DNA from: Gigantopelta aegis
Lineage: Eukaryota; Mollusca; Gastropoda; Neomphalida; Peltospiridae
Assembly: GCF_016097555.1 (NCBI RefSeq)
Contig: NC_054701.1
Coordinates: 7,325,469 to 7,389,468 of the forward strand
Length of the DNA stretch: 64,000 nt
Reading direction: 5' to 3'
The position numbers were made by a program, and so were the translations under genes. Below, in pieces: positions 1,586-50,100 of the stretch. A model generated the notes under the pieces. It was given only the letters and a program-made list of their open reading frames with translations, was not told the DNA's origin and did no database searches. Position 1 is the first letter of the stretch; every line of letters begins with the position of its first letter.

Positions 1586-2737
1586 TCATATTCTTAATTT
1601 GACATTTATGTTCTGATTAACATTTGTAATATTGGTATGTACTGCCTTGATTTCCCTGGCGACCACAGTGTTCCATAAATAGTACATTGTATCACGTTTG
1701 TCAACAAGAAAGAAAGCATAGTTATAGTATTTGTGTGACGTCACATGTTTCCTAAAATCAGAAGGGTGAAGACTGTACGCAATGTTGTACGGTTTGTGCG
1801 TGATGTTCAGTTTCTCAATGAGCACACCTGTAATGTACTGTTCGTCCATCCAGAAGAACGGAGTCCGGTAAGACATCATATACAACCCGTCCGTTATATC
1901 ACGACTCATCAGAAAAGCCGTACCCGAACAAAATGGCGGAAAGAAGTTTTGTGGAAAATCCTTTTTAGACAGATATAATTCAGAAAGTTTGTTGCGTTCC
2001 ACTGCATCGTTTAGCCAAACGTTACACAGAATTAGTCCTGTCCTTCCGTAGCGTACTTTTACAGTTGACTGGATGTATCGCATAAACACGTAAAAATTAA
2101 CAAATATATCATCGTTTGTTTTTAAAACATACACAGCTTGTCTACAGAACGTGGACACCCACTTCAATCCAGCGATCGCCTTGTAGGTCAAGTTATGATA
2201 ACTGTCGACGAAATCCTCCTGGACTACGTCGCCATGGATAACAGACTCATTCCTCACTGACGTCATCACTCCTGCGTTTGCGACTTGTCCCATGATAAAA
2301 ACTACCTCAACCCTTTTGTTCAGATAATACTTCATTTTGCCCCATGTCTGTCTAATTGCGTCTCGTTTCTCGAAATGGTCCGGTGCACTGTGAACGTATG
2401 TTATGATGAATATATCCTTTTTGTGGCAGAAAGTCTCGGGATTCAAAAGATAGCGAAACGGATGAGGATTTACAACCGGACCTTCTATGTGTAGATCTGT
2501 TTGTCTCGTTGTCTTCCCGACCGATCGTCTAGAAGAAGCAGACCTTTCAGCTGTGAGGTCGTCTAATGTTATGTTTCTCTTTCCACAAAGTAGCACAACT
2601 ATTCCGGTGGATGCGAGCAATAACGCCATCACTGCTATATATTTATACACTGTACCGATTCTTCGTAAAGGCATCCTAGGTACAGAAAACAGACTAGCAT
2701 TTCTGCTCACTTTTGCTGACATTGAATATACCGCCAT
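1586..2737 (-). CDS. Beta-1,3-galactosyltransferase-like protein (glycosyltransferase family 31), complete
   Basis: A 383-residue type II Golgi enzyme expected to move a sugar (galactose or GlcNAc, not decidable here) from a UDP-sugar in beta-1,3 linkage onto a glycan. Seen: a short cytoplasmic N-terminus, one membrane anchor at about residues 31-52, a stem, then the GT31 catalytic domain from about residue 108. Family motifs are RDAIRQTWG (125-133), EDFVDSYHNLTYK (174-186), the metal-binding DxD region as KTNDDIFVN (206-214), FCSGTAFLMSRD (269-280) and MDEQYITGV (297-305). There are several N-glycosylation sites (NIT, NES, NLT). The length is normal for the family and the frame is uninterrupted, so it looks functional. 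On the minus strand TTTATTTTCAG lies 6 nt before the ATG, a good splice acceptor; the CDS is therefore one exon behind an unseen 5' UTR exon. The exact acceptor sugar and paralogue are not determined. Confidence 0.9.
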   Translation of the reverse strand: MAVYSMSAKVSRNASLFSVPRMPLRRIGTVYKYIAVMALLLASTGIVVLLCGKRNITLDDLTAERSASSRRSVGKTTRQTDLHIEGPVVNPHPFRYLLNPETFCHKKDIFIITYVHSAPDHFEKRDAIRQTWGKMKYYLNKRVEVVFIMGQVANAGVMTSVRNESVIHGDVVQEDFVDSYHNLTYKAIAGLKWVSTFCRQAVYVLKTNDDIFVNFYVFMRYIQSTVKVRYGRTGLILCNVWLNDAVERNKLSELYLSKKDFPQNFFPPFCSGTAFLMSRDITDGLYMMSYRTPFFWMDEQYITGVLIEKLNITHKPYNIAYSLHPSDFRKHVTSHKYYNYAFFLVDKRDTMYYLWNTVVAREIKAVHTNITNVNQNINVKLRI

Positions 2738-3249: not shown

Positions 3250-3395
3250 GTAATCTAGCTTAGTCGATGCAGCGCTCGTCCATTCCAATTACATGGGTCG
3301 TAGGATGAAAACCCGCATGGCGATCGTAGGTTTTAAAGACCGTAGTATGTGCTGTCCTGTCTGTGGGGAAAAGGTTAATTGCCGCTAATTGGTGT
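3250..3395 (+). mobile_element. Old SINE-A fragment
   Basis: A decayed tRNA-like head (TAGCTTAGTCGATGCAGCGC) is followed by GTAGTATGTGCTGTCCTGTC, a clear match to the SINE-A central block. The LINE copy at 3405 begins directly after it. Confidence 0.4.
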
Positions 3396-3404
3396 TTTTT
3401 TTAA

Positions 3405-5273
3405 AGTCGACGATTTTCAGATTTGCTACAGGTCGTCCAGTATGAGTATCATTGAACGTCAGTTGCAGCTTTGTTTGAATAAACTTCAACAATGGGCAAC
3501 TGACAATGGATTTCGATTCTCAAAGTCAAAAACAGTCTGTATGCATATCTGCCAGAAAAGAGGTCACCATTTAGATCCACAGCTGTTTCTGGACAAAACT
3601 CCGGTTCCAGTTGTGGAGGAGACCAAATTTCTGGGGGTTATTTTTGACAGGAGGCTATCTTTTGTTCCTCATTTACAGTATGTAAAAAAGAAGGGCTTAA
3701 AGGCCCTCAATATCTTAAAGGTTATTGGTAAGACTGAATGGGGAGCAGATCGAAAGGTTATGCTCCGACTTTATAGATCTTTAGTTCGGTCTAAACTTGA
3801 TTATGGGTGCATTGTGTATGGGTCAGCACGTAAGTCTTACTTGCAAATGCTAGATCCTATACACAACCAGGGACTTAGGCTTTGTCTTGGTGCTTTCAAA
3901 ACATCTCCTGTGGAGAGCTTGTACGTCGATGCACACGAACCTAGTTTGGGTGCTAGACGTGCAAAGCTTTCTCTGCAGTATGCTACAAAGATTAAATCAA
4001 TGCCAAAACATCCTGCACACAATGCGGTGTTTGATAATAAATATATGAAGTTATTTGATGCGAAACCGAATGCGATTCGAACATTTGGTCTTCGCATTAA
4101 GCAGTTTTTATCAGTTTCCAACATTGATTTAACAGACATTTTGGAAACGCCTTCATATTTTATTTTGCCACCTTGGTGTATCAAACCACCAAAAATTGTA
4201 TTCGATCTTGTGCATCTAAAAAAAGATCGCACAGATGCAGTTATTTATAAACAACATTTCATGGAAATCCAAGAAAGGTACTGTGATTACATTCCTGTTT
4301 ACACAGACGGATCACGGGATGGGAATTCGGTGGCTTGTGCTACAGTGTTTCCATCAGACACAATAATTTCCATGAGATTGCCCGATTCAGCATCAATCTT
4401 TACTGCTGAAATTTGGGCAATCATTAAAGCCCTGGAACAGATTAAGGATTCATATGCATCCAAGTATATTATTTTTACAGACTCACTTTCGTGTCTTCAA
4501 GCTCTACAGTACATGAAATTGGAGCACCCCTTAGTTGGGATGGTGATACGAAAGTGTGTCTTTTTATCAATTGCCAATAAAGATGTTATACTGTGTTGGG
4601 TACCCAGCCATGTTGGCATTAGGGGTAACGAAAAGGCAGATGTTGCTGCCAAGTCTGCTTTGAACTTGCCCCGTGTCCATGTTGGTGTCCCCTACAGTGA
4701 TTTTAAATTTCATATTAACCAATATATCTTTTCGACTTGGCAAGATGATTGGGACGATGCGGTTGCGAATAAGCTTCATTCTGTCAAGGCAGTCCTAGGA
4801 GAGTGGCAGTCATCCTACAGGCGATGCAGGAAGGATGAAGTAGTCTTATGCCGTGCCCGCATCGGCCATACATATTTGACGCATTCATTTATTTTAAAGA
4901 AGGACCCTCCTCCTCAGTGTGAACACTGTCAGTGTACACTGACTGTGGGGCACATTTTGGTGGAGTGTGATCATCTCAAGCCGACAAGAAATGATATATT
5001 TGGCAACAGAAATGTTTTGGAATCGTTTACATTCCATCCAATGTTAATTGTAAAGTTTTTAAAACACTTTGACTTCTATACAAAAATTTAAGATATACTT
5101 AACTTGATTTTATATATTGTATTATACTTTCCCGCCACAGCTCCTTACACTGTGGTTTTACATGAGTCTATATAAATATGTTCATATACTTACCATTTGT
5201 GACACCCAATAGCCGATATGTATTTTTGTGCTGGGGTGTCGTTAAACAAACATTCAATCAATCAATCAATCAT
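3405..5273 (+). mobile_element. I-like LINE copy A, 5' truncated, reverse transcriptase end plus RNase H
   Basis: A non-LTR retrotransposon copy beginning inside the reverse transcriptase at the catalytic VDDFQICYRS motif. One long open frame (to 5091, about 560 residues) covers the RT thumb (KFLGVIFDRRLSF, LVRSKLDYGCIVYGSA), an RNase H domain with all four acidic residues in context (VYTDGSRDGN, FTAEIWAIIKALE, FTDSLSCLQAL, WVPSHVGIRGNEKAD) and a C-terminal zinc knuckle (CEHCQCTLTVGHILVEC). RNase H plus this knuckle points to the I superfamily. The 3' UTR ends in the stem-loop tail at 5201-5240 and a (CAAT)n tail to 5273. Because its RT frame is still open, this is the youngest of the three copies. 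The first residues of the frame (from 3379) are flanking sequence. Confidence 0.9.
5201..5246 (+). promoter_or_regulatory. LINE 3' stem-loop tail, copy A
   Basis: GACACCC (5201-5207) can pair with GGGTGTC (5234-5240), followed by GTTAAAC and CAAT repeats. The same structure closes the other LINE copies and two SINE tail types. It is probably the recognition signal for the element's reverse transcriptase (inference). Confidence 0.65.
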
Positions 5274-5289
5274 TGACAGTTTCCACTGA

Positions 5290-5400
5290 ATACTATATGC
5301 CACAATTATCAAATGTTTACCATCCAATAGCCGATGATTGAATGGTTTAATTGACCTATCTAATACAGGCGATTCAGTTAAACAAAAGCTTCACACTGTG
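5290..5400 (+). mobile_element. SINE tail (type I) remnant
   Basis: CCATCCAATAGCCGATGATT followed at some distance by CAGTTAAACAAAAGCTT matches the SINE-A type I tail, altered by an internal insertion. Confidence 0.4.
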
Positions 5401-12186: not shown

Positions 12187-13916
12187 CATAAGATTTTTTT
12201 GACCTCGAGAAATCTTATGATACCACGTGGAAGTATGGGATTTTGAAAGACCTCTATGGCATGGACCTAAGAGGCCATATGCCTGACCTTATCTCAAATG
12301 TCTTACAGAATAGGTTTTTCAAGGTACGAGTGGGATCTACGATTCCCACTCCCAAGAGATGGGTGTGCCACAAGGTAGCATCCTGTCAGTAACTTTATTT
12401 TCAGTGAACATTAACAGTGTTTAAAACCTGGCGTTGAAAGCTCGTTATATGTCGACGATTTTCAGATTTGCTACAGGTCGTCCAGTATGAGTATCAATGA
12501 ACGTTAGGTGCAGCTTTGTTGAATAAACTTCAACAATGGGCAAGTGACAATGGATTTCGATTCTCAATCAAAAACCGTCTGTATGCATATCTGCCAGAAA
12601 AGAGGTCACCGTTTAGATCCTCTGCTGTTTCTGGACAAAAGTCCGGTTCCAGTTGTGGAGGAGTCCAAATTTCTGGGGTTATTTTCGACAGGAGGCTATC
12701 TTTAGTTCCTCATTTACAGTATGTGAAAAAGAAGGGCTTAAAGGCCCTCAATATCTTAAAGGTTATTGGCAAGATTGAATGGGGAGCAGATAGAAAGGTT
12801 ATAGATTTTTAGTTCGGTCTAAGCTTGATTATGGGTGCATTGTGTATGGGTCACCACATAAGTCTTACTTGAAAATGCTAGATCCTACACACAAACAGGC
12901 ACTTAGGCTTTGTCTTGGTGCTTTCAAAACATCTCCTGTGGAGAGCTTGTACGTCGATGTATACGAATCTAGTTTGGGTGCTAGACGTGCAAAGATTTCT
13001 CCGCAGTATGCTTCAAAGATTAAATCAATGCCAAAACATCCTGCACACAATGCGGTGTTTGATGATAGATATATGAAATTATTTGATGCGAATGCGATTC
13101 GAACATTTGGTCTTTGCATTAAGCAGTTTTTATCAGTTTCCAACATTGATTTAACAGACATTTTGGAGACACCTTCATATTTTATTTTGCCACCTTGGTG
13201 TATCAAACCACCAAACATTGTATTTCATCTGGTGCATCTAAAAAAAGATCGCACAGATGCAGTTATTTATAAACAACATTTCTTGGAAATCCAAGAGCGG
13301 TACTGTGATTACATTCCTGTTTACACAGACGGATCACGGGATGGGAATTCTGTGGCTTGTGCTACAGTGTTTCCATCAGGCGCAATAATTTCCATGAGAT
13401 TGCCCGATTCAGCATCAATCTTTACTGCTGAAATTTGGGCAATCATTAAAGCCCTGGAACAGATTAAGGATTCATGTGCATCCAAGTATATTATTTTTAC
13501 AGACTCGCTTTCGTTTCTCCAAGCTCTACAATACATGAAATTTGAGCATCTCTTGTTGGGATGGTGATACGAAAGTGTGTCTTTTTATCAATTGCCAATA
13601 AAGATTTTGTTGGGTACCCAGCCATGTTGGCATTAATGGTAACTAAAAGGCAGATGTTGCTGCCAAGTCTGCTTTGAACTTGCCCCGTGTCCATGTTGGT
13701 GTCCCCAACAGTGATTTTAAATTTCATATTAACCAATATATCTTTTCGACTTGTCAAGACGATTGGGACAGTGCGGTTGCGAACAAGCTTCATTGTGTCA
13801 AGGCAGTCCTGGGAGAGTGGCAGGCATACTACAGGCGATGCAGGAAGGATGAAGTAGTCTTGTGCCGTACCCGCATCGGCCATACATATTTGACGCATTC
13901 ATTTAGTTTAACCCCT
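12187..13916 (+). mobile_element. I-like LINE copy B, truncated at both ends
   Basis: Begins in the reverse transcriptase (FFDLEKSYDTTWKYGIL), passes the VDDFQICYRS region at about 12450, the RNase H domain (VYTDGSRDGN at about 13318, TAEIWAIIKALE) and stops at HTYLTHSF, before the zinc knuckle and tail. It is very close to copy A by eye. Several frame breaks (near 12515, 12805, 13565 and 13600) leave no full ORF. The junction at 13916 with GC-richer sequence is abrupt. Confidence 0.85.
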
Positions 13917-14397: not shown

Positions 14398-15760
14398 ATG
14401 GGTAAAAACAAATCTCAAACTTCAGATGTGACCCTGAAAAGGTACCACACCGAGGTTGCGGATTCCTCATCATCTGATGAGGAGTCCAGGACTAGTTTGA
14501 ACTTGAAAAAGTCAAAAGTTATTACTTCTGAATCCTGGCCGAGGTTCTTGGTCATCAGTTCGTCTGTTGATGGGGCCTTGAGCAAATTATCTCCATTTGC
14601 TATTCAGAAGGGGCTTGTCGGCTTGGCTGGCGAGCCAAAGTCTGTGAAAAAACTGAAAAGTAGTTCGTTACTGGTAGAAGGTATGACTGCGAGGCATTCA
14701 TCGTGTCTTCTTTTAAGTCAACTTCATTGTGTAATGTGCCAGTAAAGGTATCACCTCACGCCTCCCTCAATTCATCGAAGGGGGTAATCCGGTCAAGAGA
14801 TCTGGAAGGAGTCACTGAACATGAAATAACTGAAAATGTGTCATCGCAGGGAGTGACATCGGTGAAAAGGATTAATATTTGTCAGAACAATGAGTTTGTT
14901 CCAACGAATACTTTGATCTTAACTTTCAATACACCAGTCCTTCCTCAATCAAAGCCGGATATCTCAGTATATCTGTTGTGCCATATATACCGAATCCCTT
15001 ACGCTGTTTTAAGTGTCAGAAGTTTGGTCATGGTCAAACTGCATGTCGAAACAAGTTGACATGTGCTCGTTGTGGTCAGTTTGACCATGACAGCGAAACA
15101 TGTACTAATGATATTCTTTGTATCAACTGTAAGGGGAACCATTTCGCATATTCGAGAGAATGTGCCAGATGGAAATTCGAGAAAAGGGTACACCAGATTA
15201 AAGTTGACAAAAACTTGCCATTTCCTGAGGCTAGAAAACTTGTGGAAACAGAAACACATGTCGTAGCAGGTAAATCGTATGCTACGGCAGTCAAGGTTTC
15301 CACAAGAAGTATTTCAACTAATACTGACATCACTTGGAGATATGATGAGGCTAAATATCGAATGCTTTCTGATATTTAAAAAGCTGCTAAACAGGCTGAT
15401 AAGGCAGCCCAGAAACACAATGAAGTTTCGCAGAAGCAGCAGGAAGCTTCCCAAACACCTAAAACGTGTACAAAAGTTACACAAGTGTCACTGGATTCGC
15501 AGAATCCATCAGGTAGGTCGACTACTATGGTGCCAGGCCCTAGTGGTCCTCCTCCGTCAGGAAAAGGAAAGAAAGCCAGTAAGGAGTACTCTTCGGGACG
15601 TTTGAAAAAAATGGAAGTGTGTTCTGTCCCGATAAGTAATTCGTTTGATTCTTTGGCGATGGACGTGGGTGATGAGATGGATGATTTGCCTCAAAATCAC
15701 TCACGATCTAAGTCAAAGGAAAAAACAAAGATCAATCCCATACGTCCCCCTGGTGACTAA
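14398..15760 (+). pseudogene. LINE copy C ORF1 (gag-like, three CCHC knuckles), broken
   Basis: Starts at an ATG with MGKNKSQTSDVTLKRYHTE, then an RRM-like stretch (PRFLVISSSVDGALSKLSP). Three consecutive CCHC zinc knuckles lie at about 15006-15163 (CFKCQKFGHGQTAC, CARCGQFDHDSETC, CINCKGNHFAYSREC), which bind nucleic acid. A lysine/serine-rich C-terminus ends at 15760. Two frame changes between 14700 and 15000 and a stop at 15377-15379 interrupt it. Confidence 0.8.
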
Positions 15761-15765
15761 TTCAG

Positions 15766-18700
15766 TCATTCAGTGGAACTGCCGTCGGCTTAGGCCCAAT
15801 TTTGATGAATTAAGTATTTTAATTATAAAACATAATCCTCTTGCAGTGTGTCTTCAGGAAACTTTCTTGAAGGACACTGATGATATTACCATGAGAGGAT
15901 TTAACCTCTATCATAAGTTTCAAGAAACTGAAAATAGAGCATCTGTGGGTGTTTCCATTCTTGTTAATGAAAACATTCCTTGGAGTAAAGTAACATTAAA
16001 TACCAATTTACAAGCTGTGGCTGTCAAAGTGAAGGCTCAAAACTGTTACTCTGTACTCAGTTTACATGCCACCTCGTAATCATTTTAATTTTAATCCTAG
16101 GGATCTTCAAGGTCTTCTTGATCAGCTCCCTACTCCCTTTATTATTATGGGAGATTTTAATGGTCACCACACTTTGTGTGGATGCGAGGATATCAATATT
16201 AGAGGAAAACAATTAGAAGACTTAATTCTCAAAAATAACTTACTTTTATTCAATGATCAAAGTCATACATGTTTTCATTATGCAAGTGGTTCTTTCACTT
16301 CTATAGATTTAACTCTTTGTAGTCCTACACTTTTTCTTGATTTCTCCTGGAAAGTTGGTTCAGACCCTTGTGGTAGTGACCACTTTCTCATTATTTTGGA
16401 CAATGATGGACCTCCATCGCTTGAAAGGGTCCAGAGGTGCATCTGTGCAGCACTCGTCTGCAACAATTTGCCATTACTGATGCTGATGATCCCATGTCTT
16501 TGTTCACTTCCATCTTGAAGGACATTGCAGATGAAACTATTCCTAAGACTTCGGCAGTGCCAAAGCGTTTCAATAAACCATGGTTTAATGATATGTGCAA
16601 AGATGCATTCAAAGAGCGGTTCAAACGTGAACCTACAGCAGACAACCTGGATGCATTTCGTATTGCTAGGGCTAAGGCTCGCAGAGAGATTAGACAGAGT
16701 AAGAAATCATCTTGGAGAACTTTTGTCTCCAAGTTGAATTCACAAACTACAGTTAAATCTGTCTGGGATAGGATACGTAAAATCAAAGGTAAAGAATCCA
16801 GTATTAGAGTTCATCATTTGTTTGTCAATGACACGGATGTCACGTCTCATCGTGACATTGCCAATGCATTGGCAGACAACTTTTCTCATAACTCATCTTC
16901 TGCTTTCAGTACAGATGCTTTCACATCTGTCCGAACTAAAGCTGAAAAGCAGTCCCATTAATTTTTCATCTGAAAATGCTGAAGTGTACAACAGGCGTTT
17001 CTCTATGGATGCTTGAGTAGGGCCAGATGAAATTCATTATCAGTTATTAAAGCATTTACGTGAATCATCTTTGATGGGTCTTTTGAATATTTTTAATAAC
17101 ATCTGGATTTCTGGAGACTTTCCTTCTGATTGGAGGAAAGCAATTATCATTCCTATTCCCAAGCCTGGTAAGGATCCATCTAATCCTACTAGTTATCGCC
17201 CTATCGCTTTGACAAGTTGCATTTGTAAAACCATGGAACGCATGATCAATCGTATACTTGTCTGGTATCTTGAATCTCACAAATTTCTCACTAACGTGCA
17301 ATGTGGGTTCAGATCTAGACGTAGCACAGTTGATCATCTTGTTAAGATTTGAAACGTTTTGTAGGGAGGCTTTCATCCATAATCAGCACTTGGTTTCTGT
17401 GTTTTTTGATTTGGAGAAAGCTTACGATACCACGTGGAAGTATGGGATTTTAAACGATCTCCATGGCATGGGCCTAAGAGGTCGACTTCCTGTTTTTATA
17501 TCTCAATTTTTAAGAGATAAATCTCCGGGTGGGGTCGACTTTGTCCAACATTTATCCACAGGAGATGGGTGTACCTCAAGGTAGTATCCTGTCTGTAACT
17601 TTATTTTCTGTGAAAATTAACAGCATCACCTAGTGTTTAACACCTGGTGTGGATTGCTCCGTATATGTCGATGATTTTCAGATTTGCTATAGATCGTCCA
17701 ATATGAGTATCACTGAACGTAAGTTGCAGCTTTGTTTCAATAAACTTCATCAATGGGCAACTGACAATGGCTTTCGATTCTCAAACGCAAAAACGGTTTG
17801 TATGCATATCTGCCAGAAAAGAGGTCTCCACTTAGATCCACAGATGTTTTTGGACAAAAATCCGATTCCGGTTGTGGAGGAGAATTTCTGGGGGTTATAT
17901 TTGACAGGAAGCTATCTTTTCTGCCCCATCTTAAATATGTTAAAAAGAAGAGCTTGAAAGCTCTTAATATTTTAAACGTTATTGGTAATACAGAATGGGA
18001 GCGGACCGAAAGGTTATGCTCCGTCCGTATCGATCTCTTGTGAGGTCTAAACTAGATTACGGATGCATTGTGTATGGGTCGGCACCCAAGTCTTATTTGC
18101 ATATGCTAGAACCTATACACAAGCAGGGACTTAGGCTATATCTTGGTGCATTTAGAATATCTCCTGTAGAGAGCTTGTATGTTGATGCACACGAACCTTG
18201 TTTGGGTTCTAGACGTGCCAAGCTTTCTCTGCAGTATGCCACCACGATTTAATTCATTGCCAACACATCCTACACATGATGCAGTGTTTGACAACAAATA
18301 TATGAATTTTTTGATGCAAGGCCCAATGCTATTCGTACATTTGGTCTTCGCATTAAGCGTTCAGACACTTTGGAAACCCCTTCATATTTTGTTTTACCAC
18401 CATGGTGTATTACACCACCTAAAATTGTGTCTGATCTTTCGCATCTGAAGAAAGATCGTACAGATGCTTTTATTTATAAACAATTATTCATGGAAATTCA
18501 GGACAGGTACTGTGATTACATTCCTGTGTATACAGATGGATCGCGGGATGGGAATTCTGTGGCTTGTGCTACAGTTTTTCCATCAGACACAATACTTTCC
18601 ATGAGACTGCCTGACTCGGCATCGATCTTTAGTGCTGAAGTTTGGGCAGTCATTAAAGCCTTGGAAGAAATAAAGGATTCTAGTGCTTCCAAATTTATTA

Positions 18701-19316
18701 TTTTTACTGATTCACTTTCGTGTCTCCAAGCTTTGCGCAATATGAAGCTGGATCATCCTTTAATTGGGATGGTGATACGAAAGTGTGTCTTTTTATCGCT
18801 TGCCAATAAAGATATTGTATTTTGTTGGGTGCCCAGCCATGTTGGCATCAGGGGCAATGAAAAGGCAGATTCAGCTGCCAAGTCTGCTTTGGATTTGCCT
18901 CATCTCAGGGTTGGTGTACCTTATACTGATTTTAAACATAGCATCAACCAATTTATCTTTTCGACTTAGCAATATGATTGGGACGGTGCGGATGCGACAA
19001 GCTTCGTGCTATCAAGCCAGTCTTGGTAGAGTGGCAGTCTTCCTATAGGCAGTGTAGGAAGGATGAAATAGTATTGTGTCGTGGTCGCATCGGTCATACT
19101 TACTTGACTCAATCATTTATTTTGAATAAAGATCCTCCGCCTCAGTGTGTGCACTGTCAGTGTACTCTGGCGGTATTCCACGTTTTGGTGGAGTGTAGGT
19201 ATGTGAAAGAAACTGGAAAAGATATATTTGGACAACGAAATGTGATGGAATAATTTCGATTCCATCCAGAACTTACATTACACTTTTTACATGATACTGA
19301 CCTTTATTGTAAATGT
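15766..19316 (+). pseudogene. LINE copy C ORF2 (endonuclease, reverse transcriptase, RNase H), broken
   Basis: The reading begins with VIQWNCRRL directly after the ORF1 stop. Domain order is endonuclease (15.77-16.42 kb), linker with conserved FNKPWFND (16.57 kb), reverse transcriptase (17.07-18.05 kb), RNase H (18.52-18.90 kb) and zinc knuckle (19.15 kb). Frame changes occur near 16075, 16430, 16960, 17350, 17530, 17885, 17995 and 18250, and an in-frame stop at 18967-18969. Confidence 0.8.
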
Positions 19317-19434
19317 TAAAAGTATTTATTTGTGATATTTGTATTTTTGCACAGTTCTTTACATGTGATTTTATTTAACTCTTGAATTTTTATATTCATG
19401 TTGCTCATCACTCTGTTTGTATTTACCAAAGTTT

Positions 19435-19499
19435 GACACCCAATAGCCGATGTATTTTTCGTGCTGGGGTGTCATTAAACATTCATTCATTCATTCATT
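19435..19499 (+). promoter_or_regulatory. LINE 3' stem-loop tail, copy C
   Basis: GACACCC (19435-19441) pairs with GGGTGTC (19467-19473). The loop contains AATAGCCGATGTATTTTTC. ATTAAAC and (CATT)n follow. Confidence 0.7.
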
Positions 19500-23759: not shown

Positions 23760-26700
23760 GTACATCGGTAGTGTGGAATCTTTACGATTGTAGCTCAGTG
23801 ATAATGCATGTGTCTCAGTTGCTGTGGATGTCCATACTTCTAGTAGACCTATTGACATTGGTTTTCCTCCCATACAATCATATATGTTTGTTTGTTTGCA
23901 GGCACTTAATTTTGGCACATCAATAAATAAATAATAAATCAATGTGCTCTAGTGGTGCTGTTAAAGAAAACAAACTTTTAATTTTAGCATTATTTCCACA
24001 GGGAAATAAAACTGAAATTTTATGATCTGATGAAAAATTAAACCTATCAGTTTGTGAATGTTAGGAAATACTAATTCATATATCAGTGTTATCTCCCCTT
24101 CCTTCAACGTCATTACTAAATATCTAGTAGACAAACACATCTACAGGTTTATCAAATTTCAATATGTTCTTCATATCAACAGTCATCCACTGCCATACAG
24201 AGTAATTTGCCTAATCTGTTCTACAGACCTGCAGAATTATACCATTACTAGAGATTACTGGTCTGAACAAACATGCCTTTGAGAAATTAATTTCAGTTTT
24301 AGCTTTATGAATGATTCATATATCAATTCATATATCATGAGATACATGTTACAGGTTAACAACAAATGATTACAAAAGAAATGAAGATTTAATTTATTTA
24401 CTTATTTAGTCACTTAGTCACTTAGTCACATATTTAGTGGGCCTTATTTCTCTAAATGTGGATTATAAATGGAAATTACGTTCATTTGGAATACCAAACC
24501 TCGTTATTGTATGATCCAAAACATTTTAATTGAACAACGATCGAGGAAATTCCATGACACGCTTCACAAATGAGGGCCGTCTATATACATGGCAAATAAT
24601 TAACTATATTATTTCATGACAAAATAATGGTGAATACGCTGAAATAAAATAATAAACAGTTGGCACATGAACTCACAATTTAAAAAAAATTATTATTATG
24701 ATTTAAAAAAAAAGAATTTGTGGGGGTTTTTTTTAACGAAGATACCATCGTTAGCGGAGGCTATATACACAGTCGTCGTAAATATAGCCCCGTCATATAT
24801 AAACACTATCTAGTTCACAATATTCTTTGAAAATGTAACAATTCCTATCCTAAGCCAGCTGTAATTACCCATGGGGTTATGGCATATTTTGCTTATTAAT
24901 GAATTTGACATGGTGGAGAATGAAGATATTTGTGATCCAGATGTTTAGATTTTTTTGCGTATGACTAACGATAAATTTACCTATGGAAGAAAGGAAGGAA
25001 ATGTTTTATTTAAGGACTCACACTCAACACATTTTATTTAGGGTTATATGGCGTTAGATATATGGTTAAGGACCGCACAGATATTGAGAGAGGAAACCCG
25101 CTGTTGCCACTTCATGGGCTACTCTTTTTGAATAGCAGCAAGGGATCTTTTATATGCACCATCCCACAGACAGGATAGTACATATCACGGCCTTTGTTAC
25201 ACCAGTTGTGGAGCACTGGCTGGAACGAGAAATAGCCTAATAGGTCCACTGACGGAATTTAGCTGTGGATGCCTAACTAGTCGGGATTGTCGACGTTTAA
25301 CATGCTTCTGTTACTAAAATAAATTAATGTATAATTTTATTATCATTCAGTACATGTTTTTATTAATTTTTATTAACTTATTTTTAATGGAATTTTTTTT
25401 CTATTTACTCTATGTTGCTGAGGACGGTCATGTGTTCTCGTTACACAAGCTTAGTAAATCGTTTTGACACTGGTTATTAAGGGGATGCCCATTACATGAC
25501 TCAAAAATAATACGTCATACCTCTGCTCTCCAAATAGCTGTTATTTTTCTCGAAATTATGGACCGTCGATATTATTCAATTATTTTTACAAAATATCAAT
25601 AATAAGTGGAATATGGTGGTTATGTAGATGGTTCAATAAAGTACTTTTAGGGTCACTAATTAGGTCAACCATCTGTGACTGAGTGCCTTTAAAGTAGACA
25701 ACAGTTAATAATTTAAAAATTAATGACATTTAATAATCTACAAAAGAATGTCTTAAACACCTGTTAGTTCATTTCCATGTTTATTATTCACACGGTTCAA
25801 CATAACCGGCAAGCACACGTGCAGTAACAAGTGTAATGATGTAATTTTAGGAAGCGACGTCATAACTTGACGTAGCTTCCCAAGTCCTAGCCCAGACTAT
25901 GCTTGTGAAATATGAAGTCATTTCTTCGTCTTCTTTTAGTTGTGGTTGAAACATTTTGAGACAGCCCTTGTTATTCATAAAAAATTACAATAATAATATG
26001 AATAATAAAGAAATTATTACACTTGTGTGTGTGTCGTACTGATATTACGAAACTCGTATCAGCATTCATGTATTTCTATTTCAGTTCAACTTTGACTTTA
26101 TTAAAGTGTTCCGTGTGAATGAGTTTAAGTTTGAGCCCCCGTCCTATTCTGACTGTGCGGAGGATGAGGATGAAGTAAACACGATAGAGATTTTGAACAA
26201 ATCCATGCAGCACAGTGTGTGGAACTGTGACGGCGAGATTGTCGAGTTTCCGAGTCTACATGTCAGGTCAGTTGTACAGTACTTCAAATTATTGTCTGAC
26301 TGTAAGTCACCAGTCTTAAAACAAAAGTGTTAAAAAAACCTCAACAGTATCAACTCCTCCCACCAAACACACCTTATTTTATAGTTCAAAAAAATGAAGT
26401 TTTATGATGTAATATTTGTTAGAGAAGGTCAGTGACTAGTTTTAGCATGATGGAAATATATTTTACATTAATCATATTTGTAATGTTAATTTCAATTACC
26501 TTTTCTGTGTCCTACATTTTTGATCTGTAATGATATTATGCCAGTGAAATCATCAGCATCAGTGCATATATTGGTTGAGGTGAAGTCTATATTTTAATAA
26601 TTAAATTTTCATTACATTCATTAAAATTGAAACGCCATCCCATTGGTCCAGCCATAGCAATGGAAGTTTGTTAATGTCTCGATGAACGTAAAAATACTGT

Positions 26701-30934: not shown

Positions 30935-31020
30935 CATCACATTGTTGCATTTACCATAGTTTGACACCCAATAGCCGGTGTATTTTTCGTGCTGGGGTGT
31001 CATTAAACATTCATTCATTC
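30935..31020 (+). mobile_element. LINE 3' end, heavily 5' truncated
   Basis: CATTTACCATAGTTTGACACC, the stem-loop (GACACCC with GGGTGTC) and (CATT)n match the end of LINE copy C. Fewer than 90 bp were inserted. Confidence 0.8.
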
Positions 31021-37595: not shown

Positions 37596-37666
37596 CAATA
37601 CTAGAATAATGAATGAATGAATGAATGAATGTTTAACGACACCCCAGCACGGCAATACTAGAATAA
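37596..37666 (-). mobile_element. 43-bp LINE-tail insertion with a perfect 14-bp target duplication
   Basis: CAATACTAGAATAA occurs at 37596-37609 and 37653-37666. Between them the minus strand holds only GTGCTGGGGTGTCGTTAAAC preceded by CC and followed by (CATT)n. It is the most extreme 5' truncation of the LINE in the window and a clear product of target-primed reverse transcription. Confidence 0.9.
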
Positions 37667-37984: not shown

Positions 37985-38250
37985 AAGTTTGCTCTGTTTA
38001 ATGACACCACTAGAGCACATTGATTTATTAATCATTGGTTACTGAATGCGATATTTGGTAATTTTAACATAGTCTTAGAGATGAAACCAAGTATATTTTT
38101 CCATTAGTAGCAAGGGATCTTTTATATGCACCGTCCCACAGACAGGATAGCACATACCACGGCCTTTGATATGTCAGTCGTGGTGCACTGCCTAGAGCAA
38201 TAAATAGCCCAATGGGCCCACCGACGGGGATCAAGCCTAGACTGACTATG
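37985..38250 (-). mobile_element. SINE-A with type I tail
   Basis: Minus strand: GGATC(AA)GCCTAG region near CCCCGTCGGTGGGCCCATTG, GGCCGTGGTATGTGCTATCC, GATCCCTTGCTACTAATGG and the tail AATCAATGTGCTCTAGTGG, GTCATTAAACAGAGCAAAC. Confidence 0.85.
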
Positions 38251-39922: not shown

Positions 39923-40917
39923 GACCTGAATTCATACTAATTAAGGTCTAAAAACAAGTTGTGTTTTAAGGATCATGCCAAAAATTAGGTTAGGTTGGCT
40001 ACAGATCCATATGAACTGTTATGAATGTACTGGCCTACATATAAAAAAATTAGAAAAAGAAAAGCTTTGCCTTTTTTTCTAGGTAGGGCAAGGTTGTAAA
40101 AAAATGTCTCTTTTTAAACAATAACATTCAAATAATCTTCCTTCTTCATTCTACCAGAACCTGTCTATTAATGTCACTTAAATATATACAAATACTGGTC
40201 TTTGGAAGCAGGTGACTTGTCAGATTAATTTATATCAATTTGTAAAATTCAGATGGTTTTTATACAAGATGTCATTTAGACAAGTGGTTGATAAACACAG
40301 TTTAAATAAAAGACACATGGTTGTTATATTATACATGTATTGAACAACCAAAGAAAAAATAAATAATTTAATATATATATATCATTATAAATTTAATTTG
40401 AAAAATAAGATTGTCAAAACTGGTCTAAAATGTTCACAAGACTGATGACTTTAATACACACAAAGGTTACCACAATATACAGGCCTTCTTATGACATTAG
40501 TATTTTCATTATTACTACTACATGTATATAATCCCTTCCAAGACACACCGATGCTTTATGAAATTCATTCATATCATTGTTCTCATTGTACTGATGATGC
40601 AAGTATATAGTAACACACAATTTAACTCGTAACAAAATTTAGGTGGTGGTGTTTTTGTTTAATAAGATTATGTAGAGAACAAAGTATTGTTCTAGATTTT
40701 CTTGACATGGTAACCTGAATGACCAGTCTTGACTTATTTCAATGGCTGCCTTGGTAGAAGTATATGTTACCTGTCTGTGTTAAAACACACCATAAAGTAT
40801 CACTTACTGCTATTTAAGTATGTGTGGTGGCAACAGATTTATTCACTCACACTAGAGGCCAAATGTCTAAGTGATCAATAAAAATGTGTTGAGTTGTCTT
40901 TAAATAGTCACTTCCTT
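39923..40917. other. No gene recognised
   Basis: Nothing that I can support. Confidence 0.5.
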
Positions 40918-41213
40918 TAAATTTAATGACATACTCAACACATTTTAATTATGGTTATATGGCATTGGACATATAATAAAAGAAGAAACCTGATGCTGCC
41001 AGGCAATTGGCTACCCTTCCTGATCAATTAGCAGTAAGGTATCTTTTATATGCAGCATCCCACAGATATGATAGTACACACCATGGCCTTTATTATGCCA
41101 GTTGTGGAGCACTGGATGGAATGAGAAGTAGCCCAGTAGGCTCACCGAAGGAGATCGATGCTAAACTGATGGTGCATCAAGCAGCACTTTACCATATGGC
41201 TACATCCTGACCC
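40918..41213 (-). mobile_element. SINE-A with type II tail, diverged
   Basis: Minus strand: TAGCCATATGGTAAAGTGC (box A), GAGATCG-type box B region, ACCATGGTGTGTACTATC, AAAAGATACCTTACTGC and AATTAAAATGTGTTGAGTA. Confidence 0.75.
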
Positions 41214-41509
41214 CTTCCTTTAAAGACAGGGGGTTTTGATACAAGGTGCCCTTTATAGCAGGTCCTAAATAACCAATCTATCATATGAAAATGTATCTTT
41301 TTGAGCAAATATTTTCTCTTTCTGAATAAACATTCAGAATTCTTATCAGTGTCAACCTAACATTCTACACTAAACAAAATTAATTTAATCTCATATATAC
41401 CAAACTTATATATTTGAAAAAATAAAATATGTGCATGAAATTAGTCATCACATACTGCTTACTAAAAATATGATCTAACAGGGCCAAATTTACAAAACCT
41501 GTTTTTCTT

Positions 41510-41605
41510 AAAGGAAATGTTTTATTTAACGACATACTCAACACTGTTTTTCTTAAAGGAAATGTTTTATTTAACGACGTACTCAACACTGTTTTTCTTA
41601 AAGGC
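41510..41605 (-). repeat. Duplicated SINE-tail scrap
   Basis: AAAGGAAATGTTTTATTTAA followed by CGAC(A/G)TACTCAACACTG occurs twice with a 51-bp period. It is the terminal part of the type II tail. Confidence 0.6.
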
Positions 41606-44137: not shown

Positions 44138-47100
44138 CTGAAACAGGGAGCAATCAATTTAATTTATAGTTTGTACAGATAATAAAAACATAGTAAAATT
44201 ATATTAAACCCACTGATCCCAATACATTTTCTGTTACACACGTCTTGTGAGCCACTAAAACACTAGAATTACCAGACACTTATAGTCGCCTCTGACAAAT
44301 GAAAACTTGCTTATCTGGAGAAAACTTGGACCATTGTCTCTTTAAAGTATAGATCAATCCCCGTCGGTGGGCCCATTGGGTTGTTTCTCGTTCCAGTCAG
44401 TGCACCACGACTGGTATATCAAAGGCCGTGGTATGTGCTACCCTGTTTATGTGATGGTGCATATAAAAGATCATTTGCTACTAATGGAAAAATGTAGCAG
44501 GTTTCCTCTCTAAGACTATATGTCAAAATTACCAAATGTCTGACATCCAACAGCCGATGATTAATAAATCAATGTGCTCCAGTGGTGTCATTAAACAAAA
44601 CAAACTTTATTAACCTAACCTCAAACACTGGCATATTCCCCTGGGAATCCTCCAATGAGTTCAAACCAAACCAGCGAAGGAGAAGGAGGAAGCTTTAGTC
44701 ATGTGACCGGACAGGAGGCAGAGAACTCACTGGAAGATTATAGCCATCCCATTGGCTGTTGGGATGTTTGGACTAGACTACTATCCTAGGGGAATATACC
44801 ATTGTTTGAGGTCAGATTAAGTACAAAAGAAAATGAATGGGTTATGCCATATTATTAAAAAAATAATAATTAATTCTCTATTAATATATTGGCAATGATA
44901 CAGATTATATACATATATGGTATAATAAAAGACACACACAATACCTGATATTTACAAACAGTAATTAACAATATGTAGTTGATTTTTTTTATGCCACAAT
45001 ATGATCAGGTAACTAATTTTATTTTGTATTTAGAGATTTGTCACAAAGGCTTTTTTTATTTGAAAAATATCAACCAATTTGAGGATTTAAAGAAATGAAA
45101 AGGATTTTTCTTTAACCACAGCTCAGCACATATGGAACTATAGGTCTTCATTGGTTACTTCAATACTTGTACTAAGAGTACAACAGAGGATATCTGCTGC
45201 AGCATCATGGACTATTCCTACCAAGATTTTTTTTTAATATGCACCTACACATATAAAGGAAACCATAGACCATGGTTTTGGTATATGAATCACGTGGAAA
45301 GGGATGAATGAACAAGAACCATTAGGTCATCGGGAGGAGTCAGCGAAGTGTTCATTGATTTCCAAGCGAGTTTCACGTACCTGTAAAATCCTATCATATG
45401 ACTTTAAACCTGCTCTGTGAGCGGGACTGTTCGGTCTGATAGCACTGATAAACACTCCCTTCTCATACATCCCGTCTGACAAACTGAAACCAAAATCTTC
45501 CACAGCCGAATGTTTCGTAACCACCACGCGATGCAGCTGGATCGGCGTTGGGGTGAAAATAGTCTGCATGTGCTCCTGTATGGTCTTGGAGTTTGCCAGG
45601 GAGTCTTTGGAGCATGACTTGCCATTCCGCGGTTGGTAGCTATCCATGGAGTCCTGTGACACATCATCTCGGTCCATTCTGTGAAACTTCCGTCTTCTCA
45701 CTCTGTCCGTATCGTCAGAGGTCCGGGATCGTCGGTCCAGACTGGCGGTGCTCCGTTCACGTAGAGTCAGGCCGATTTGGCGAAGCATTTCCGAACCAGA
45801 TCCTTTCTCGAAGTCTTTCAGAGTCTGCATCCACTCGTCGGCGTCGCCGTTGCTGCTGTAGCTGTCACTGCTGTGGGAGTCGTTGCCCCAGTCGTCTTCC
45901 GACAGCTGCATGTCGGCCATTCCTTCACCACTACCCTCCATGTCCAGGGCAGAATGACCCGACACTCGTCTTGTGGAATCTAAACATACAGAGATATGTG
46001 CTACTAAGGTAGATAGAGCAAGCATTTTTAATATAAACACAAATTTTGTTTTAAAACCAGAATTCAACACATTTTAAACTAGCTATTTTGTGTCCAATGT
46101 TAATGCTTGGAACAGAGAGAGTGACAGTGAGAGTCAGTGAAAAAGAGAGAGAGAGAGCGACTGTGACAGAGATCGAAACAGACAGAGAAAGTCACACACA
46201 AAATGGGGAATTAATTATTTTAAAAAACCCAACTCATTTTGAATTGCTCAGCTTTTCAAGATGTAAATCAAGCAAGAATCATAAATAAAAATCAGTGTAA
46301 CATTGAATGAGAGGAGATACAATATAGAAAAAGAAAATCCAACTCTTTGAGATCAAGCGCAAGACTTCCCCAAGCATATACACACATACTAGAATTACCC
46401 AGTTTCTTTGGTCTTCTTTGAGGAATAGCAACAACAAGGGCATGGCCATTTGGGTTACTGTTGCCAATATCCTGCCCAGAGCTATCCCATGATTCAAGTG
46501 CACTGTCAACACTCGGGATTGGTGTGGAACGTTTACTTGTGTCATCATCATACTGAAAAAACCCGAAAAAACAACAACTTGATATTAAGAAAAATGTGTG
46601 ATGTTCACAAACAGCCATTTATTAGCAGTCTGTAAAAAATGTTTTAAAAACAGATGTTTGATAAGCCTATATGAAGCAGTGTCTGTAAAAAATGTTTTAA
46701 AAACAGATGTTTGATAAGCCTATATGAAGCAGTGTCTGTAAAACATGTTTTAAAAACAGATGTTTGATAAGCCTATATGAAGCAGTGTCTGTAAAACATG
46801 TTTTAAAAACAGATGTTTGATAAGCCTATATGAAGCAGTGTCTGCAAAACATGTTTTAAAAACAGATGTTTGATAAGCCTATATGAAGCAGTGTCTGCAA
46901 AACATGTTTTAAAAACAGATCTGTAAAACATGTTTTAAAAACAGATGTTTGATAAGCCTATATGAAGCAGTGTCTGCAAAAAAGGATACAGGTGGTAAAA
47001 TTTATAAATTTTGATTTGGCTCTAAGATATATATTGGTGATTGGTATCTCAAACATTAATAACACGGGAGTTGCCTCTGCTTGTAAATGTGTCAACTGGT

Positions 47101-50100
47101 TTATGATCTTATTTTTAGAAATAGAAATTTAGTTAATCAATAATTTTATCACCCCAAAAAATATATAAACAGATGAAAATTAACATAAATACACTTTGTG
47201 TTTGATGTAATACATAAAAAAGCCAAAGTTAATATTTGTTTTGTTTAACGACACCTCTAGAGCATATCTATTTATTAATCATCGGCTATTGGATGTCATA
47301 CATTTGGTAATGTTTGACATATAGTCTTAGAGGAAACCTGCTACATTTTTCCATTAGTAGCAAGAGATCTTTTACATGCACCATCCCAGACAGGATAGCA
47401 CATATCATGGTCTTCAATATACAAGTCGTAGTGCAATGACTGGAATGAAAAATAGCCTAATGTACCCACCAGCAGGGATCGATCCCAGACTGACCGTGTA
47501 TCAGGAGAGTGCTTTACCACTGAGAGTTGAGTACTTACTGAATGAGCTAGCTTTTGCTTTGATGCTGAAAAGTGAAAACAAAACCTGATTAATCATTCAG
47601 AAATTTTATAGTTTAAACATTTAAAAAAGGCTAATCAAATTATTACAAATAATCTTGTTGTAACATGACATTTCTATACATAAAAATGAAGTATAATTTA
47701 CAAACAGCAACATATATGTAACTGATATACATGTAGCTCAATATCTACGTAATTATACAGAAGAACCACCTATATAAAAGGTTTTGATACACACTTTGAG
47801 TCAATGGTCTTGCAATCTTGAGCACGACAATGTCTCCAGCTGTTTGTAACATCCGAATGGCCTCTGAAAGTCGCTTGCCCCTCGTCATCTTGCCGTTAAT
47901 AGCAAGCAGATTGTCACCTACATGGATTGCTCCAGTTCTGAAAAAAACAACGAATACCAAAACCTTTATTTGGTTTAATGTCACCACTAGAGCACACCGA
48001 TTCCTTAATCATTGGCTACTGGATGTCAGACATTTGGTAATACTGACAGGTAAACTTGACAAAAAAAAAGAATTTTTTATTTTTGTTTAAAAACCTAAAC
48101 AATACAACAAGCACATGCCTGTGATGAGAAATTGCATATTTGTCCCTTGGATAGCCACAAGTTGAAGTTTGTATTGTTTAATGACACTACTAGATTGATT
48201 TTATTAATAATTAGCTATTGGATATCAAACGTTTGATAATTCTGAAATCTAGTTTTAGAGAGAAAACCCACTATATTTTTCCATTAGTAGCAAGGGATCG
48301 TTTATATGCACCATCCCACAGACAGGATAGCACATACCACGGCCTTTGATATACTGACAGGAAAGAGAAATAGCCCAATTTCAGACTGACAATGTATCAA
48401 GCGAGCACTTTACCACTGGGCAACACTCTACCACTGAATAGCCACAAGGAGGTGGATAGCGTAAGAAGTTGAAAGATAGGGGGAGCTGCCAGATCAGGAG
48501 GAAATAACATGGAATTCAAAGCAGAGAAAAGGGCACTGGGATTATTAAAAAAAAGAAGAAGAAAAAAAAAAAAGATAATGTATTTATGGTCATGAAGAGG
48601 TTTTCCTAAGTCTTCAAGGTCATGATAAAAAAACAAAAAAGTGTTTATTATCATTATCACAATGTTTAAAATAACAGGAAAGCTACTAACTTCTCTGCCA
48701 GTCCTCCCTCAATGAGAGCCGATATAACAATTGGATCAAGCGGGTCTTCTGTGCCAGTGATGGTTATTCCTAGTGGCCCACCAAACCGCTGAAGTTCCAC
48801 AGTGTAGGTGATAGACTCGTCATGGCCATCCTCTAGAAACAGGACAAAAACAAAAACATGAATCAGATATTCATATATTACTGAACATATTAAAATTACT
48901 TAACAAAACTAATATATCCAATGAAAAAGCATTGTTGTTAAATTTAGAATGCTACTGTGAAAGTTCAGTTCTGGGTACAATATATTCAGTGCACTAATGT
49001 GGTTTGCTTTACCTATGAAGATATATTTATTGAATGAATAGTATGACATCTGAACACATATAATAATTATGTAAATTAAAATATTTTTTGTTACCAAATT
49101 TAAAAACTATTTATTCTGGTGACTAAGTGTATGTGTTACGGTATACCGATTCCACCTGGTGTATGTTCTGCCACATTACATCCAAAGAAACAAATACTCG
49201 AGAATGTTTATTACGGCCCTACCAGTCCAGTTAGAGGGGACTATAGGTTCTGTCTCCATCTGTCTGTCTGTCTGTCCCACATATGGTTTTACAGACAGTT
49301 TTTATAAACCTCTAGATATTGAGCTGAAATTATGTGTATAGCTGTCATCATGTAGTCACAAATCACATTCAACTTTCATGAGAATTTGCCCATTTTTGAC
49401 AGAGTTATGGCTCTTGATTTAGTAGTACTCTCAGAATGCTTGTTTTAAGTCTAAAACTAAACATAACCCTGGTGTTTGAATCAAGTATTTCAGCAGCAAT
49501 GAAACTACATATTGCAACCAGAATATTTTATTCCTAGAACATATTACTGCTTACAGAAGGTTTTATCACTAACCGGTAAATACTGATCAAACTACTGTAA
49601 ACAAACAAAACGTTTGTTTTCTTTAACGACACCACCAGAGCACATTGATTCATTAATCATCAGCTACTGGATGTCAAATATTTGGTAATTTTGATATATA
49701 GTCTTAGAGAGGAAACCCGCTACATTTTTTCCATTAGTAGCAAGGGATCCTTTACATACACCATCCCACAGACAGGACAGAACATACCACAACCTTTGAT
49801 ATGCCAGTTGTAGTGCACCAGGGTTGAAAATTAACATGAAAACCATGGTCGCCAGTAGGGCCAGTTGAAGAAAAATCTTACTGGCCCTTCTCAAATTTAA
49901 CTAGCCCTCCAATTATCACATTGAAATTTAACGGCAAAGCCAAAATCAAAATCAGAATGATCTTTGTTGAATAATAACCATGTGCCCACCATATATAGTC
50001 TGTTTACTTCAAAAGGAAACCAATGAATTGGCATGTAACTTCATAATGAATAAAGTTAATATTCATATAAAAACATGTTCTTAAGTTTTAAACTAACACC

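Follow-up and report, generated by a model that had tools for sequence, protein, structure and literature searches.

SINE/LINE pairs have been recorded for L2, CR1, RTE, L1 and others, including V-SINEs paired with CR1 or L2 (PMC3747384, in the portion cited). The systems closest to the locus described here are UnaL2/UnaSINE and ZfL2 (L2 clade), in which, as here, a 3′ hairpin is followed by short terminal repeats; there, the hairpin is recognised by the LINE protein (cited portions of PMC4176376 and PMC3747384). The UnaL2 stem also has a single bulged nucleotide, like the stem found here, and this nucleotide matters for UnaL2 retrotransposition (PMC4176376). For ZfL2, it has been argued that recognition by the ORF2 protein is general for the stem but specific for the loop (PMC4176376). 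The cited portions of PMC3747384, PMC5135761 and PMC4176376 draw their evidence on such hairpins mainly from L2, R1, R2 and L1 elements. In molluscs, Nimb and Ingi are named as the I-superfamily clades across the species studied, and for three of eight SINE families of bivalves a LINE donor has been identified (both from the cited part of PMC10294476).

We analyzed a stretch of 64,000 nucleotides from the gastropod Gigantopelta aegis, called the window below. It contains a LINE and two related SINE types, whose tails have a 3′ hairpin in common according to their predicted folds. We regard this shared hairpin, which joins a LINE resembling the I superfamily to two sister families of SINEs, as real, and it probably functions as a 3′ recognition hairpin.

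The tail hairpin and its distribution in the window

A sequence-only reading of this DNA had quoted LINE tails at 5201–5240 and 19435–19473, a type I SINE tail at 44542–44589 and a type II SINE tail at 55289–55327, and all four lie where it placed them. As predicted by folding, the shared hairpin is richer than that reading had described. Folded one at a time, the LINE tail and the majority tails of types I and II are all predicted to adopt the same topology: helix P1 outermost, then a spacer, the inner helix P2, a single U bulged from the 3′ strand, and finally the short helix P3. In the LINE hairpin at 19435–19473 (+ strand; minimum free energy −18.7 kcal/mol), P1 pairs 19435–19441 with 19467–19473, P2 pairs 19444–19447 with 19463–19466, the bulged T is at 19462, and P3 pairs 19448–19450 with 19459–19461. 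The strands of P2 are TAGC/GCTG in the LINE and TAAC/GTTG in type II. Loops measure 8–9 nt in the LINE and 7 nt in type II, and the type I tail is predicted to form an additional, fourth helix (TGATT/AATCA) in its loop.

None of 5000 dinucleotide shuffles is as stable as the LINE hairpin, 38 of 5000 reach the energy of the type I majority tail and 135 of 5000 reach that of type II. The P1-P2-bulge-P3 topology, under a definition that was coded after the folds had been inspected, occurs in 12 (LINE), 5 (type I) and 10 (type II) of 5000 shuffles. Eleven of 12 tails from the window, all except that at 38007, were also folded singly. Five of the 11 folded no better than shuffles (z-scores of 0.04, −0.33, 1.02, −0.39 and 0.00); all five belong to old SINE copies, which is consistent with the decay expected of dead copies.

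The LINE hairpin at 19435–19473 is followed by the terminus ATTAAAC and (ATTC)n (19474–19499, + strand, read from the sequence). GTTAAAYAAA had been proposed as a signal common to all families, which proved incorrect: LINE copies 19435 and 30963 read ATTAAACATTC instead. The invariant element is TTAAA, present in all 12 aligned tails. Terminal repeats are (ATTC)n in the LINE, (TTCC)n in type II and ACAAA-like in type I, and they vary inside the LINE too, where copy 5201 ends in (AATC)n. Matching terminal repeats are usual in LINE/SINE pairs of the stringent type but do not strictly define them. Since these short repeats are not identical between the LINE and the SINEs, and we take this feature as non-defining, we class the pair as a probable one of that type.

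We built a covariance model from the three LINE tails only, using the LINE's own minimum-free-energy structure, and searched both strands of the 64 kb with filters off; the resulting E-values are rough by about fivefold. Ranked directly after the three LINE tails are the type I tails at 44542 (22.9 bits, E 0.002), 47244 (E 0.0029) and 49622 (E 0.015), and then the type II tail at 55289 (19.4 bits, E 0.016). The next match is background (E 0.3). The remaining five of the nine SINE tails that have both arms were not separated from background by this model: 40922 and 47974 have E 1, 48177 has E 1.3, and 25009 and 37997 are absent from its matches up to E 10 in the 64 kb. As a side observation, the top background match (14.4 bits) is a GAC/GTC stem adjoining ATTAAA in the LINE coding sequence (18605–18657), probably a chance occurrence.

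A model of the same three LINE tails without base pairs again recovers the three type I copies (E 0.0008–0.018). Type II 55289 scores 4.4 bits in that model (E 3.4, for its 3′ part only), so that 15 of its 19.4 bits are gained from pairing. With nhmmer, a SINE query matches the three LINE tails (E 0.004 to 0.021) and a LINE query matches two SINE tails (E 0.024 and 0.025). The earlier claim of one hairpin common to the LINE and both SINE types is thus upheld: the SINE 3′ end is homologous to the LINE 3′ end, for type I by sequence (three copies) and for type II when structure is included (one copy), and a common 3′ stem-loop is predicted in all three.

Upstream of the hairpin, similarity is weak. 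Compared with type I, random 33-mers equal the LINE sequence at 19435 in 184 of 5000 cases, at 30963 in 1550 and at 5201 in 565; compared with type II, the corresponding counts are 3567, 488 and 41 of 5000. An iterated model trained on seven sequences (three LINE and four SINE tails) finds 12 tails with E-values no higher than 0.036, including the seven used for training. Every one of them lies at the end of a LINE or a SINE, and the model brought up no additional family in the 64 kb.

The LINE, the SINEs and their insertions

The LINE is present as three long stretches (3400–5240, 12445–13912 and about 14978–19473) and two short 3′ ends. The longest copy (about 14978–19473, + strand) encodes an endonuclease (16066–16518), pieces of a reverse transcriptase (17017–17954) and an RNase H (18370–18969) in broken frames. 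Around position 15000, two CX2CX4HX4C (CCHC-like) motifs were seen by eye; ORF 14978–15379 has no Pfam match. Copy a (3400–5240, + strand) retains the end of the reverse transcriptase, the RNase H and the 3′ UTR, and its hairpin at 5201–5240 was identified by sequence and fold. Copy b (12445–13912, + strand), known from a sequence match, lacks the 3′ end. The short ends are a hairpin at 30963–31001 (+ strand) from a strongly 5′-truncated copy, and an ultra-short insert at 37610–37652 (− strand) in which the hairpin is reduced to its 3′ arm, followed by the tail.

In Pfam searches, the LINE pieces matched Exo_endo_phos_2 (62.5 bits), RNase_H in three copies (50.4, 51 and 29.1 bits) and RVT_1, which exceeded its cut-off of 29.6 bits in one piece (32.7 bits) and fell below it in three (21.5, 12.4 and 24.1 bits). 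NCBIfam gave no match for three LINE pieces. A search against Rfam at the gathering threshold also gave no match. An AP-type endonuclease together with a reverse transcriptase and an RNase H is a feature of the I superfamily. The architecture read from the sequence fits that superfamily, in agreement with the earlier description of the partner's reverse transcriptase as I-like.

Type I SINE copies lie at 44346–44599 (+ strand; hairpin 44542–44589), 37994–38235, 47240–47484, 48174–48379 and 49618–49820 (all − strand), with a 3′ fragment at 47970–48058 (− strand). Of these, 47240–47484 and 49618–49820 were identified by sequence match and the LINE-only tail model, and 37994–38235 and 47970–48058 by sequence match and the iterated model. 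Another type I insert (23927–23968, + strand) starts within the hairpin. A further type I SINE on the + strand is apparently split into two pieces recognized by sequence match, a probable 5′ part at 3335–3367 and a 3′ part at 5279–5343, separated by LINE copy a. Type II copies lie at 55040–55345 (+ strand; hairpin 55289–55327, (TTCC)n tail) and, by sequence match and the iterated model, at 24997–25258 and 40920–41194 (both − strand). At 41499–41604 (− strand), only a type II 3′ arm and tail occur, now within a 45-bp tandem duplication whose unit consists of the 3′ arm, tail and flank. A second type II-like 3′ end is seen on the + strand near 40894 (within 40820–41010), tail to tail with the minus-strand copy that ends at 40920.

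An alignment of the two SINE types extends across almost their entire length (a type I query matches 55080–55337 with E 6.4e-32), so the types have their tail in common by descent. The sequence-only reading had allowed for either convergence or inheritance; inheritance stands, and convergence of types I and II on the tail is ruled out by the near full-length alignment. Among four SINE copies, one has an exact A box-like match and three have exact B box-like matches. ARAGORN found no tRNA. The SINE body presumably resembles the V domain of V-SINEs.

Other features of the window include a 383-aa ORF with a Galactosyl_T domain (1586–2737, minus strand; 143.9 bits), an ORF with a PDZ domain close to the cluster of SINE copies (45327–46070, minus strand; 29.4 bits), and a 45-bp tandem repeat in long arrays (55728–57840).

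Direct repeats of 11–14 bp flank some LINE, type I and type II copies and are probable target-site duplications. They are exact at the type II copy 55040–55345 (13 bp, CTTACAAAATACC, at 55030 and 55361) and at the LINE insert 37610–37652 (14 bp, TTATTCTAGTATTG, at 37653–37666 and 37596–37609). The repeats on either side of LINE 30963 (CTATGACTKCCTC) agree at 12 of 13 bases, those of type I 23927 (TTAATTTTRGCA) at 11 of 12, and type I 48174–48379 has an 11-bp repeat (CTTGTGGCTAT). When random 3′ flanks were used as a control, equally good matches arose in 1 of 200 for LINE 37642 (the insert 37610–37652), 2 of 200 for LINE 30963 and 4 of 200 for type I 23955 (the insert 23927–23968). At the type II locus 41499–41604, none of 200 random flanks was as good, but tandem duplication alone yields direct repeats. 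A convincing duplication was not found for LINE 5201 and 19435, for type I 44542, 47254, 49632, 38007 and 47984, or for type II 25019 and 40932.

The order of the pieces suggests that an older type I SINE (3335–3367 and 5279–5343) was interrupted by LINE copy a, in which case the LINE would have been active after that SINE had inserted. About 47 bases of the SINE are unaccounted for between its two parts, and a search for a target-site duplication around this LINE copy found none. We also considered a SINE-LINE chimera formed by template switching at 3335–3400, which is ruled out by the remaining SINE at 5279–5343, downstream of the LINE.

Pairing, recognition and rival explanations

The sequence-only reading had held that paired changes or G-U pairs maintain the stem, and it had suggested a covariation check. 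Covariation was not significant: the observed score was reached by 53 of 500 shuffles, and one pair is changed on both sides. The sample comprised 10 of the 12 tails, 9 of them different from one another, whose arms were entered manually and whose loops were left out; these tails derive from three source sequences and give little power. Pairing is seen in 93.3% of 90 cells, as against 62.5% or less in slid registers; shuffled arms pair at 91.5% on average, and 58 of 500 shuffles attain the observed value. The only double-sided change is one P2 pair, G-C to A-U in three of nine rows, all type II, and one such pair is also attained by 442 of 500 shuffles. This sole pair of columns altered on both sides belongs to the inner helix, which the earlier reading had not seen. 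In the five outer-stem pairs tested, the changes that preserve pairing affect one side and not both: type II has G-U in place of A-U, and type I has U-G in place of C-G.

Between the LINE and type II arms, 9 of 11 pairs are kept versus 7.6 expected under random change (P 0.19); simulated random change gave P 0.22 for the double change and 0.13 for both together. With covariation, pairing and simulation all at background level, compensatory evolution in the stem is suggested rather than proven. A structure-blind global alignment yields the P2 correspondence between the LINE and type II in its first co-optimal alignment under three settings, and MAFFT alone aligned the 3′ strand of P2 inconsistently across families. 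The third P3 pair is ambiguous in the global alignment and was therefore left out of the compensatory count. Also uncounted is a conjectural G-C pair at P1 position 4 of the type II ancestor (GCGTC), suggested in part by one truncated copy.

It is fairly likely that the hairpin and the TTAAA-containing end are the recognition signal of an I-superfamily LINE lineage, borrowed by a V-SINE-like ancestor and retained in types I and II. The LINE lineage would rely on this 3′ signal when copying itself by target-primed reverse transcription. The ancestor from which a V-SINE-like family with a tRNA head descends would have gained the LINE tail, and owing to this tail its RNA would be taken up by the LINE's ORF2 protein. 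The ancestor would then have split into types I and II, in which the helices and the bulged U were retained while loops and terminal repeats drifted. We infer the binding of the hairpin by ORF2, the direction of borrowing from LINE to SINE and the use of one LINE lineage by both SINE types.

This explanation is favored because the four SINE tails rank next after the LINE tails in 64 kb, with base pairs adding 15 bits for type II, and because separate minimum-free-energy folds give the same topology, which at most 12 of 5000 shuffles do. It also draws on directly supported features: the sequence shared by the LINE and type I together with the predicted fold, the common ancestry of the SINE types seen in their alignment, the LINE domains, and direct repeats at some copies, with probable target-site duplications in all three families. 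Finally, there is the analogy of UnaL2, where a single bulged nucleotide is needed for efficient retrotransposition (cited in PMC4176376). We count against it the background-level covariation, the five of nine SINE tails that are not separated, the differing loops and terminal repeats, the weak upstream similarity and the use of one window only.

The strongest competitor, possible but considerably less probable, is that each SINE type depends on a separate LINE, of a sister subfamily or of another clade such as CR1, that matches its loop and terminal repeat; the shared helices would then be an older inheritance. A separate LINE subfamily for each SINE is possible in that loops and terminal repeats differ among the LINE, type I and type II. 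Moreover, the loop of ZfL2 LINEs is read specifically (PMC4176376), and tails of bivalve V-type SINEs are reported to be homologous to CR1-clade LINEs (Matetovici 2016, via the cited part of PMC5135761). By contrast, the window's LINE tails are closer to the four SINE tails than any background sequence is, and no other LINE tail was noticed in the window, in which other clades were not systematically sought.

Another idea builds on recognition by one LINE lineage and concerns inserts that start inside the hairpin. There are three of these among about 16 tail-bearing inserts, one per family: LINE 37642 (37610–37652) begins at the 3′ strand of P3, type I 23955 (23927–23968) in the loop, and type II 41580 (41499–41604) at either P2 or the bulged U. 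Two of the three have the 3′ arm only. The total of about 16 consists of the 12 tails from the iterated model and of 37642, 23955, 41580 and 40894 (whose 5′ end was not located), with degenerate or tailless copies excluded. Conceivably, the ORF2 protein holds the hairpin during cDNA synthesis and the bound apex is a roadblock, with one I-superfamily enzyme tolerating three loops and reading the helices and the bulged U, unlike ZfL2. By a rough estimate, uniform truncation of a 250-base SINE would make about two of the 12 SINE inserts start in the hairpin, equal to the number observed; the LINE case is the less expected one. The SINE cases do not exceed what uniform truncation gives, which lowers the probability of the roadblock; we consider it unlikely, a lead rather than a finding. 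If it were general, the site bound by the protein could be read off genome sequence simply from where inserts are 5′-truncated.

It is quite improbable that the tails are related by sequence descent only and that the hairpin has no function. The covariation result and the 9 of 11 pairs kept versus 7.6 expected (P 0.19) would fit such a history; the type II tail, however, is recognized mainly via base pairs (19.4 versus 4.4 bits), and the double change in P2 and the low shuffle counts also speak for the hairpin. Chance or convergent hairpins next to a common RTTAAA word are hardly credible, for although the coding-sequence stem beside ATTAAA scores 14.4 bits (E 0.3), the four SINE tails reach 19–23 bits and sit precisely at the 3′ termini of retroposed elements, and the three type I tails among these are matched by the sequence-only model as well.

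Comparison with known systems

Among literature titles, none that dealt with an I-superfamily LINE as the partner of V-like SINEs in molluscs came up in a search whose reach excluded the likeliest sources, and a search by the letters of the tail returned no SINE or mollusc paper by title. Searches for relatives elsewhere gave no match with DNA patterns against viral contigs and genome contigs, with the LINE protein against viral contigs, with a SINE copy against plasmids or with a LINE stretch against phages.

The Gecko SINE of Aedes aegypti has its tail in common with I-clade LINEs, as is the case here, although in another host; the likeness concerns the sharing of the tail (PMC3747384, in the part cited). 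The plant L1/SINE2 hairpin (Ohshima) is a LINE/SINE stem with compensatory changes, but belongs to the L1 clade and to monocots (PMC3747384). Molluscan V-SINEs (RUDI, and Vhc of Matetovici 2016) may resemble the present SINEs in a putative tRNA-like head and a V-like body. They are also described as having a LINE-derived tail and predicted 3′ stem-loops (PMC5135761), as here. Their reported partner is CR1, whereas the tail described here matches a LINE with endonuclease, reverse transcriptase and RNase H; this comparison is by description, from the cited part of PMC5135761.

For a LINE lineage that bears RNase H, the locus supplies a specific candidate recognition signal that can be tested, namely two helices with a bulged U between them. 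In addition, the two SINE families with their different loops provide natural variants for the question of stem versus loop specificity. The present case, which is based on sequence, differs from UnaL2 and ZfL2 in that the LINE has an RNase H and is I-superfamily-like, that two helices flank the bulge, and that the terminal repeats of LINE and SINE differ. As far as we have seen, the pairing is ordinary in kind, a LINE/SINE pair of the stringent type, and new in its particulars.
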